DNA from: Vibrio tritonius
GTDB lineage: Bacteria > Pseudomonadota > Gammaproteobacteria > Enterobacterales > Vibrionaceae
Assembly (NCBI RefSeq): GCF_001547935.1
Contig: NZ_AP014635.1
Location: 1,922,001 to 1,986,000 of the forward strand
Reading direction: 5' to 3'
DNA length: 64,000 nt
This document shows positions 1,483 through 62,870 of the stretch, piece by piece. The position numbers and the translations under genes are program-made. The first letter of the stretch is position 1, and each line of letters begins with the position of its first letter. The notes under the pieces were generated by a model. That model was not told the DNA's origin. It did not search any database and worked only from the letters and a program-made list of their open reading frames with translations.

Positions 1483-1556
1483 TCGTAATTGAGCTTAACC
1501 TTTACTCATTGATGAAGCTCTGAATTCAGCATCTTGAGGGCATTTGGGTGTGTACC
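1483..1556 (+). repeat. Decayed right-end relic of the 266-bp repeat
   Basis: The segment follows the last ~74 bases of the full 266-bp element: an ATTGAGCTTAACC block, TTGATGAAGCTCTGAATTC, then CATCTTGAGG and CATTTGGGT. Substitutions are scattered through it (for example GGGTGTG in place of GGGTATA). The left part of the element is absent. Compared with the full copies at 7730, 13260, 31957 and 62605. Confidence 0.75.
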
Positions 1557-7729: not shown

Positions 7730-7995
7730 TATACCCAAGTAACCTCAAGATGCGGTTTCAGCGAGAATGTATTCGCTCATAGACAAGGCACCGATTTGAA
7801 TACATAGTTATTTTACGTAGAAAATCGGTAACACAGCATAGGAGCGAATACAACTCGCCCTTTGGGAGCTCATCAACAAGCCCATTTCTGCGCCCAATGA
7901 CGTTGAAAGGGAATGACCATTCCTTCCGTCATTGAGCTTGACCTGTGCTCGTTGATGAAGCTCTGAAATCTGCATCTTGAGGTCATTTGGGTATA
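7730..7995 (+). repeat. 266-bp inverted-repeat element, copy A
   Basis: Full-length copy. It begins TATACCCAAG and ends CATTTGGGTATA; the terminal 24 bases form an inverted repeat with two mismatches through CCTCAAGATGC. Inside are two nested stem-loops: GTATTCGCTC pairing with GAGCGAATAC, enclosing ACCGATTT/AAATCGGT; and GAGCTCATCAAC pairing with GTTGATGAAGCTC, enclosing CAATGACG/CGTCATTG. It carries no gene. It sits upstream of the GNAT gene and downstream of the bglA terminator. The flanks share only TA. Confidence 0.9.
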
Positions 7996-13259: not shown

Positions 13260-13525
13260 TATACCCAAGTAACCTCAAGATGCGGTTTCAGCGAGAATGT
13301 ATTCGCTTATAGGCAAGGCACCGATTTGAATACATAGTTATTCTACGTAGAAAATCGGTAACGCAGCATAGAAGCGAATACAACTCGCCCTTTGGGAGCT
13401 CATCAACAAGCCCATTTCTGCGCCCAATGACGTTGAAAGGGAATGACCATTCCTGCCGTCATTGAGCTTGACCTGTGCTCGTTGATGAAGCTCTGAAGTC
13501 TGCATCTTGAGGTCATTTGGGTATA
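13260..13525 (+). repeat. 266-bp inverted-repeat element, copy B
   Basis: Full length, in the same orientation as copy A. In the first hairpin it has GTATTCGCTT/AAGCGAATAC where copies A and D have GTATTCGCTC/GAGCGAATAC, a two-sided change that keeps pairing. By eye it differs from inverted copy C at one base only. Its right half (13403-13525) is read on the minus strand as the 3' end of the GNAT gene. Confidence 0.9.
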
Positions 13526-14005: not shown

Positions 14006-14032
14006 AACACTCCTTCACACTAGCGCTGCTTC

Positions 14033-14110
14033 TATGTATTCAAATTAGAGCTTCGCCTGAGATCAAATACATTCTCTTTGAAACAACATCTTGAGATTAT
14101 TTGGCTATCT
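14033..14110 (-). repeat. Decayed left-end relic of the 266-bp repeat
   Basis: On the plus strand TATGTATTCAAAT, CTTCGCCTGAGA, AAATACATTCTC and CATCTTGAGATTATTTGG follow, with substitutions, the reverse complement of the first ~80 bases of the element. The remaining ~185 bases are missing. It lies just upstream of the GNAT start at 14005, so this gene is bracketed by one old and one young copy. Confidence 0.7.
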
Positions 14111-18361: not shown

Positions 18362-18770
18362 CTTTTATTGCCTTTACTGTAATTAAGTTCCGTGAACTAG
18401 TCCATTTGCAATTCGACTACCATTCACTACAAAAATGGATGGGCATATTTAATTTAGAGTAGATATACTAATCAAATGCATTAAAAAAATCTAATACAAG
18501 ATTCACAAGAATATCCTTTTTAAATCAATATTATTACGCCATAAAGACAGAAGAGTAGACACAATTTTTCCACTTGAGAAAAGTGAAATTAAGTTCACAA
18601 CCAACTATTTTTACCAATGTCGCTCTAATGAGACAAATATCAGCCACTATTTACTTAGTTATCATAAAGATGCGTTAGCTATAATTACCAATTAGCCAGT
18701 CCCATATAGACCTCTAAGCCCTCCTATCAGTTGTAACTCATTCGCCATAGTGATAAGCTCGCGCGAATTT
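18362..18770. other. Intergenic promoter region of add
   Basis: About 400 AT-rich bases separating the divergent ribE-like gene and the add riboswitch. A good -10 element TATAAT lies at 18680-18685, about 90 bases before the aptamer, with only a weak -35 match. No other gene or RNA is seen. Confidence 0.45.
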
Positions 18771-18838
18771 ACTTCGTATAATCCCAATAATAAGGTTTGG
18801 GAGTTTCTACCAAGAGCCTCAACTCTTGATTATGAAGT
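18771..18838 (+). ncRNA. Adenine (purine-class) riboswitch aptamer
   Basis: P1 forms between ACTTCGTA (18771-18778) and TATGAAGT (18831-18838). Between them are the conserved AATCCCAATAATAAGG P2 arm, GTTTGGGAGTTTCTACC junction, and CAAGAGCC..AACTCTTG P3 arm. The discriminating junction base before TATGAAG is T (GATTATGAAG), the adenine-specific form. Downstream, AGTCT of the 3' P1 strand and ACTTTA can pair with TAAAG and AGACT around the add ribosome binding site, so adenine binding should open the start site (translational ON switch). Confidence 0.97.
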
Positions 18839-18877
18839 CTGTAACTTTATGTCCTCATTTTGTAAAGGTAGAGACTG

Positions 18878-19870
18878 ATGAACTATCACAACCTTCCAAA
18901 AATAGACCTCCATTGTCATTTAGACGGTAGCGTACGTCCTGAAACCATCATTGATTTGGCTCGAGAACAAAATATCACTCTACCAAGTGACGATATCGAA
19001 ACCATTCGCTCTTTAATGATTGCTCCTGAGACTTGCCCAAACCTTGGCGAGTATCTATTACGTTTCGAATTACCCCTTTCCGTAATGCAAACAGCGGAAG
19101 CGATAGAACGTATCTCATTTGAAGTATTTGAAGATGCCGCAAAAGAGAACGTCAAATACCTTGAAATGCGCTATGGCCCAATGTTACACCTCAATCAAGG
19201 GCTGACACTTGACCAAGTAATCAGCAGTGCAGTGAAAGGCATGAAACGTGCAGAAGAAATGTACGACATCAAGGGTAACTACATTCTCTCTATTTTGCGT
19301 CACATGCCAAAAGAAACCATTAAGTCGGTTCTTGATGCCGGTGCAAAATATCTCAATGACGGAGTGGTTGCTTTCGACTTAGCCGGTGGTGAAGCGGACG
19401 GTTTTTGCCATGAATTCATTCCATATGCGCAATACGCGATTGAAAAAGGTTATCGAGTCACCATTCATGCTGGCGAACAAGGTTGCGGACAGAATGTCTA
19501 TGACGCCGTGAGCCTCTTAGGTGCTGAGCGTGTTGGACATGGTATTCATATTAAGAACCACGCCGATGCGTATCAGTTGGTGAAGCAAGAGTCTATTACA
19601 TTAGAAACGTGCCCAAGCAGTAACGTACAAACCAAAGCAGTGGATAACTTAAGTAGTCATCCAATTAAAGCGTTCTATAAAGATAGTATTCTTATCACAA
19701 TCAATACCGACAACCGCACGGTTTCTAATACCACAATGACAGACGAAGTCCGTAAGGTGTTTGAGCAATTTGAGCTGACTTTCGAAGATTACGCGGCAAT
19801 TTACAAAACCAGCGTCGCGAATGCGTTTGCCACAGACGAGGTAAAACAGCATCTACTAAGTTTTATATAG
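18878..19870 (+). CDS. add: Adenosine deaminase
   Basis: A full 330-residue zinc enzyme converting adenosine to inosine (and deoxyadenosine to deoxyinosine) in purine salvage. Visible are the Zn ligands H12 and H14 (DLHCHLDGS), the HAGE motif with the catalytic Glu near residue 200, the RVGHG histidine, and the TCPSSN and INTDNR Asp regions. It is somewhat closer to short bacterial Add types. The ribosome binding site AAAGGTAGAG is within the sequestering part of the adenine riboswitch, which directly tests the substrate's base. A terminator follows 38 bases downstream; the gene is monocistronic. Confidence 0.97.
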
Positions 19871-31956: not shown

Positions 31957-32222
31957 TATACCCAAATGACCTCAAGATGCAGACTTCAGAGCTTCATCAA
32001 CGAGCACAGGTCAAGCTCAATGACGGCAGGAATGGTCATTCCCTTTCAACGTCATTGAGCGCAGAAATGGGCTTGTTGATGAGCTCCCAAAGGGCGAGTT
32101 GTATTCGCTTCTATGCTGCGTTACCGATTTTCTACGTAGAATAACTATGTATTCAAATCGGTGCCTTGCCTATAAGCGAATACATTCTCGCTGAAACCGC
32201 ATCTTGAGGTTACTTGGGTATA
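31957..32222 (-). repeat. 266-bp inverted-repeat element, copy C (inverted)
   Basis: Full length, in the reverse orientation to the other copies. By eye it is identical to copy B except one base in the second hairpin (GCTCAATGACG in the element's own sense instead of GCCCAATGACG), which makes that stem perfect against CGTCATTGAGC. It lies between the AraC gene and the Zur-box promoter of the G3E GTPase. Confidence 0.9.
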
Positions 32223-62604: not shown

Positions 62605-62870
62605 TATACCCAAGTAACCTCAAGATGCGGTTTCAGCGAGAATGTATTCGCTCATAGGCAAGGCACCGATTTGAATACATAGTTATTCTACGTAGAAAAT
62701 CGGTAACGCAGCATAGGAGCGAATACAACTCGCCCCTTGGGAGCTCATCAACAAGCCCATTTCTGCGCCCAATGACGTTGAAAGGGAATGACCATTCCTT
62801 CCGTCATTGAGCTTGACCTGTGCTCGTTGATGAAGCTCTGAATTCTGCATCTCGAGGTCATTTGGGTATA
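62605..62870 (+). repeat. 266-bp inverted-repeat element, copy D
   Basis: Full length, same orientation as copies A and B. It has the GTATTCGCTC/GAGCGAATAC version of the first hairpin like copy A, plus its own substitutions (CGCCCCTTGGG, GAATTCTGCATCTCGAGG). It lies between the YeeE/YedE start and the 119-residue gene. A frame on its minus strand is only its own translation. Confidence 0.9.

Follow-up and report, generated by a model that had tools for sequence, protein, structure and literature searches.

The genome of Vibrio tritonius carries a family of 266-bp repeats that is probably a high-copy, non-autonomous MITE of the IS630/Tc1-mariner type, moved in trans and keeping its fold for propagation. 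The first-pass annotation of this DNA, made from the letters alone, had described the repeat as having the shape of a MITE; this description is supported here, with the addition of a TA duplication and of an end motif shared with IS630 elements. Where the junction can be read, the element inserts at TA with duplication of the TA, and its relatives have in common a fold, a three-way junction, in which compensatory changes are numerous and neither strand is preferred.

Copies in the window and beyond

The window (the whole stretch of DNA that was analysed, 64 kb in length) contains four full copies, all where the first-pass annotation had placed them and each exactly 266 bp long; they are 97-99% identical, and their gap-free alignment has a mean column identity of 99%. 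The long terminal inverted repeats claimed for them are present as 24-bp ends, the internal stems that had been named are likewise found in the sequence, and two decayed fragments extend the original list. The features of the window are the following, with the parts of the element given for copy 1:

7730..7995, forward strand: full copy 1, 266 bp
7730..7753, forward strand: left terminal inverted repeat of copy 1; the outer TA is the target/duplication, as known from other copies
7761..7858, forward strand: arm 1 of the three-way junction, a hairpin with helices 3-5; double changes in 27 of 36 pairs
7852..7869, forward strand: junction motif AACTCGCCCTTNGGGAGC, conserved in the alignment of relatives
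7865..7964, forward strand: arm 2 of the three-way junction, a hairpin with helices 6-10; double changes in 25 of 32 pairs
7972..7995, reverse strand: right terminal inverted repeat of copy 1
13260..13525, forward strand: full copy 2, 266 bp; site empty in the relative G102, best fit with TA retained
31957..32222, reverse strand: full copy 3, 266 bp; site empty in G102, best fit with TA retained
62605..62870, forward strand: full copy 4, 266 bp; element absent from the G102 site, where the junction is too diverged to read
1484..1549, forward strand: decayed right-end fragment, 88% identical to consensus positions 198-263
14032..14108, reverse strand: decayed left-end fragment, 79% identical to consensus positions 2-78

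The window also holds a purine riboswitch (RF00167, 70.6 bits) at 18754-18852, just upstream of a 330-aa open reading frame (ORF) at 18878-19870.

The end pattern TATACCCAAGTNACCTCAAGATGC, with up to three mismatches allowed, occurs 8 times in the window and not once in 100 shuffles. Extending the search to the whole genome (two contigs, 5.22 Mb) raised this number to 269, against 0 for a reversed-pattern control, with many further copies lying outside the window. A sample of 464 kb, consisting of the window and one contiguous stretch of 400 kb, contains 11 full copies that are 97-99% identical to the consensus, together with ten shorter matches of 23-135 bp (two more inside full copies being excluded); extrapolation from the full copies gives about 124 per genome. 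Distinct complete copies read in the fetched genome stretches number 45, which is a lower bound for the genome.

Among 48 end pairs in the targeted loci, 36 enclose 266 bp and 4 enclose 285 bp, while three of the remainder join a neighbouring copy; and among the 38 distinct copies of 266 bp, all except one (with 25 differences) are separated from the consensus by 0-8 differences. The four 285-bp copies (L046, L049, L052 and L066) form a subfamily with a common 19-bp insertion in arm 1, apparently a tandem duplication, which indicates that arm 1 tolerates some change. There are also extreme mini-forms that consist of almost only the two inverted ends (L050 1756-1794, 39 bp; L074 1504-1556, 53 bp; L076 1497-1559, 63 bp), and truncated copies (L044, L060, L061, L067, L069, L073 and L075) whose left end is exact and whose break point varies (33-100 bp), a left-end bias that may not be real since the sampling favoured left ends.

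According to crude ORF calls, 34 of the 38 copies lie between genes and 3 within an ORF, and for 1 there is no upstream call. All four intergenic arrangements are represented (11 divergent, 9 and 7 in tandem, 7 convergent), and by these calls the 38 copies show no preferred gene context that would suggest a regulatory position. If contig starts are taken as origins, the 85 exact right ends give no clear sign of a preferred orientation with respect to replication. No reading frame stays open for 60 codons or more in more than 8 of 30 relatives, and the element contains no transposase gene.

The family is not confined to this DNA, a possibility that the first-pass annotation had raised and that matches in other genomes of the genus rule out. 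At E <=0.001, 59 of 148 genus genomes match copy 1 (the host's own genome included); among the matches listed, at least 33 of these 59 have an essentially full-length match at 67-100% identity, and others match at one end only. Five of 72,556 plasmid records match, at full length in V. tritonius, V. campbellii, V. casei and a Photobacterium and at half length in V. aerogenes, and no record of the phage collection does. In some annotations the repeat appears as a small hypothetical protein, for example on the V. tritonius plasmid pMA35. Outside the genus, full-length matches occur in the order-level families coded f7 and f13, and a search of 394 order-wide genomes for the exact junction motif found it in 13, which is strictly a minimum. 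On inspection of extra-genus loci, four from G159 and G281 (f13) have both ends, 263-264 bp apart, and 176-bp forms are found at one of two G262 loci (f13) and at one from G368 (f10); no recognisable ends were seen at five other loci (f7, f6) nor at the other G262 locus.

Insertion sites, ends and the candidate transposase

The closest relative found, G102, is 92% identical over 1.5 kb. Twelve of the 45 complete copies have both flanks in the G102 stretches that were fetched, and the element is absent at all 12. Six of the empty junctions are readable, meaning that at most 60 bases are unaligned, and in all six the best fit is one TA kept, i.e. the TA was duplicated on insertion; the other six empty sites are too diverged to be read, with best fits of no TA (4), TA (1) and TATA (1). 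For copy 1, the flanks lie about 9 kb apart in G102 and the insertion junction is unreadable. No longer target duplication is evident in the end pairs of the targeted loci. The TA duplication suggests the IS630/Tc1-mariner superfamily, for which RUP offers a precedent (PMC2229807).

The ends of the element read TATACCC-N10-AAGATGC. The first-pass annotation had advised a search for an autonomous element with TATACCC ends, and IS630-family elements in other genomes do carry the same end motif, which bounds the "CCC-type" insertion sequences (IS) of this family in Vibrio, Photorhabdus and Pectobacterium. Searching 223 genus genomes for IS630-type transposases with Pfam DDE_3 gave a match in 104, and at 21 of 30 transposase loci fetched from the genus the gene is flanked by a pair of TATACCC-type ends; 7 of the loci have a single such end and 2 have none. 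Intact elements with such ends are about 1.1 kb long and encode a protein of about 355 aa that belongs to the IS630 family (NF033545, E 5e-71).

A scan of named genomes gave 80 loci, of which 44 were scored after removal of truncated loci and of many near-identical copies from Photorhabdus; the end used was the one that came closest to the IS consensus in a range of about 160-220 bp. The 3' ends start with TATACC in 40 of 44 cases and end with AAGATGC in 36 of 44; for the 5' ends the corresponding counts are 35 and 20 of 41. Compared with the left end of the MITE, the 3' ends at two Pectobacterium polonicum loci and at six Photorhabdus loci have 2 mismatches in 24 positions; the 5' ends of the scanned IS630 elements are at least 7 in 24 away, and an IS630 element with exactly the ends of the MITE was not found among the scanned loci. 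Ends shared with IS630 would also suit an ordinary IS deletion derivative whose fold is incidental, a reading that we consider extremely unlikely, as it is contradicted by the interior of the element, the length and fold of which are kept at about 70% identity across species.

Under the explanation that we prefer, a non-autonomous MITE moved in trans, a CCC-type IS630 transposase (lost from the host or transient in it) would bind the ends and insert the element at TA. The helper transposase is the weakest link of this explanation. The whole host genome has no match to the CCC-type IS630 transposase group and one weak match to DDE_3 (E 1.5e-7). Of 32 mostly MITE-bearing genomes searched for the group, 16 have no match; the MITE-bearing G030, G135 and G084 show none, and G134 and G142, which also bear the MITE, show weak matches only. 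As no match to the group was found in the host, the helper would be transient, lost or different. The sampled stretches of the host's own genome contain no autonomous element: the three end pairs with a spacing of 950-3220 bp all run into an adjacent full copy.

Two other candidates were rejected. An IS4 transposase beside an end in pMA35 (L038 10796-12405), considered as an autonomous form, belongs to an IS4-family element that is inserted into a copy. A two-ORF IS630 group has no such ends (<=6 mismatches) in L210-L212, L214, L223, L225 and L226, and one 6-mismatch end match in a further locus of this kind, L222, is read as chance.

Enzymes of the Y1/HUH and RAYT type recognise DNA hairpins, and a single-strand transposase of this sort might move the element, as with REPINs. 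The genome does contain two RAYT-like genes that are intact, and a Y1 match that has a stop, yet within 1.5 kb of these three loci there is no convincing match to the element (best E 0.03). Nor do the TA duplication and the IS630-shared ends fit, REPIN insertion not being known to leave a TA duplication, and we judge this mover to be very improbable. The two RAYT-like (Y1) proteins (L117 1456-2415 and L118 1414-2403) are related to each other, 319 and 329 aa long, and without adjoining copies of the family.

A three-way-junction fold without strand preference

The three-way junction closed by the ends, as it had been proposed from the internal stems, is the minimum-energy fold of the element. 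One copy folds much more stably than shuffled sequences do: the two strands give z = -10.9 and -13.2 with RNA parameters and z = -10.3 and -10.8 with DNA parameters. Covariation was analysed in 30 relatives with a mean identity of 72%, the structure being taken from RNAalifold on the same alignment. In the 92-pair junction so obtained, 95.2% of cells are paired, against 82.4% with shuffled partners and 33-37% with partners slid by 1-3 columns, the first percentage being inflated relative to these controls by the derivation of the structure from the same alignment. The repeated double changes are independent of that derivation: 57 of the 92 pairs have changes on both sides, three or four Watson-Crick types are used at 35 pairs and all four at 16, and on the tree of the relatives there are at least 173 double changes from one Watson-Crick pair to another, with 44 pairs having changed at least twice.

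Inserted copies and propagating lineages appear to differ in how changes are compensated. In the host genome, rare changes at paired positions (found in two copies or fewer) end in a Watson-Crick pair in 3 of 37 cases, in G-T in 12, in A-C in 15 and in other combinations in 7, and the copy with 25 differences has Watson-Crick pairs at 3 of its 18 changed paired positions. By contrast, the three shared paired variants (49/113, 63/98 and 170/201) are compensated in 14 of 24 variant copies, though only in part, as there are 5 wobbles and 5 mismatches; two more shared variants, 50 and 221, create a wobble or a Watson-Crick pair out of a consensus mismatch. Between lineages, 362 of 611 departures end in Watson-Crick pairs. 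Cells and copies are mutually related, and these contrasts are therefore given without p-values. As rare changes are seldom compensated and shared variants often are, selection seems to act when copies are made, such that inserted copies seem to decay and propagating lineages seem to keep the fold.

The molecule under constraint could be RNA or DNA. A folded RNA tolerates G-U on its own strand and does not tolerate A-C. Structures predicted from one strand lean to the G-T of that strand (74:45 from the plus strand, 75:45 from the minus strand), and so only pairs predicted from both strands were counted; in the 80 such pairs, G-T and A-C occupy 43 and 44 cells, respectively. The same procedure applied to RNase P RNA from 30 genus genomes gave 20 G-T to 1 A-C, a control that is not perfectly matched, as divergence is lower in the RNase P set than among the MITEs (90% vs 72% mean identity). 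The constraint thus looks alike on the two strands, which is the expectation for folded DNA and not for one RNA, and the pairs that change show no strand preference.

A transcribed structured RNA, regulatory or stabilising and also mobile, would account for the strong RNA fold, which is seen on both strands, and for the conserved junction motifs, and the few conserved plus-strand A-C mismatches (61:103, 58:107 and 77:89) would be G-U on the minus strand, which leaves some room for an RNA of that strand. Apart from the even balance of the wobble cells, this reading has against it that the 38 copies lie in all gene contexts, that most of the rare changes seen in inserted copies lack compensation, and that Rfam has no gathering-score match at the copies in the window and none for copy 1 at E <=5. 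We regard it as improbable.

The main rival to selection is mutational palindrome correction, in which template switching in a hairpin (quasi-palindrome correction) copies one side of the stem to the other and complementarity is kept with no function. Strand symmetry is also expected from such a DNA-copying process, and so are double changes that go mostly from Watson-Crick to Watson-Crick with few wobble intermediates; the variant at 170/201, from G-C to T-A, is also in its favour, with T-C intermediates in 3 copies and a G-A in 1. However, template switching should erase the internal loops, and yet 58:107 (pairable in 0 of 30 relatives) and 77:89 (4 of 30) stay mismatched despite base changes, the facing loop position 61:103 never changes (pairable in 0 of 30), and overall 241 of 795 facing loop cells are able to pair, although 19:255 (27 of 30) and 165:214 (22 of 30) mostly are. 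Compensation in situ is also rare, as shown by the counts for rare changes and for the most diverged copy given above. This process is, in our estimate, rather unlikely as the source of the complementarity.

Returning to a fold kept by selection during propagation, we hypothesize that the element propagates via folded DNA, either as a cruciform or as single-stranded DNA at the replication fork, in which the two ends would be brought together. Copies unable to fold would then leave no descendants, and copies already inserted would be free to decay. The mobility of the MITE may in this way be structure dependent, as is known of integron attC sites and REPINs. The stronger claim, of a DDE/IS630-type transposon that cannot spread unless its DNA takes the form of a defined three-way junction, is made tentatively, as a possibility to which we give less than even weight; the IS630/DDE superfamily is thought to act on double-stranded ends.

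Relation to known repeat families

The repeat has the features of an IS630-type MITE: it is short, lacks a transposase gene, and has inverted ends, the TA duplication (in 6 of 6 readable cases) and ends shared with IS630. The strand test shows which of DNA and RNA is likely to be the molecule under constraint, and the CCC-type IS630 group can be named as candidate source of the transposase. If mobility depends on the fold, the copies would be a natural record of what the transposition machinery demands of its substrate. REPINs are likewise non-autonomous, hairpin-forming and structured at the DNA level; they are shorter and are not known to have IS630 ends, and, as a further difference from the REPIN/RAYT system, the RAYT-like genes here have no flanking copies of the element.

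The titles and abstracts searched, of limited coverage, contain no description of the 266-bp family, and the searchable literature, which is limited evidence, yielded none of a large, covarying, strand-symmetric three-way junction. In the accessible parts of the published accounts, the folds of bacterial MITEs are hairpins predicted from one sequence or a consensus, whereas large-scale covariation supports the fold described here.

A repeat of V. cholerae that contains VC2263 has 28 intergenic copies and is called a variant of RU-1f (ERIC) (PMC2759123). Its peptide LQLQIVWVY resembles by eye LHLEVIWVY, which is encoded by one frame of the right end here, and the end of that repeat may thus be of the same type; the likeness is one of peptides. 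The repeat is described as ERIC-like in the accessible part of the report, with neither an IS630 partner nor a fold analysis (PMC2759123).

Parallels are also provided by two families with proposed IS630 partners. RUP of Streptococcus pneumoniae has about 100 intergenic copies, a TA target and ends that resemble an IS630 element, IS630-Spn1, which has been proposed as the source of its transposase in trans (PMC2229807). It differs in being 107 bp long, in being known from one species, in that the proposed IS is of the same species, and in that no other structural signature is reported in the part of the article accessible to us (PMC2229807). In Photorhabdus, the ERIC-related MITEPlu5 has been associated with the CCC-type IS630 elements ISPlu3, ISPlu8 and ISPlu19; like the present family, MITEPlu5 and ERIC (MITEEc1) combine high copy number, TA duplication and a strong predicted fold with CCC near the ends, shared with an IS630 subtype, and with presence or absence between strains (PMC6267812). 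The accessible text on these elements reports no three-way junction, covariation or strand test (PMC6267812). That the present repeat is distinct from ERIC, as the first-pass annotation held, rests on length, 266 bp (285 bp in four copies) against 123 bp for MITEPlu5 and 127 bp for ERIC. That the family works like RUP and MITEPlu5 is well supported.
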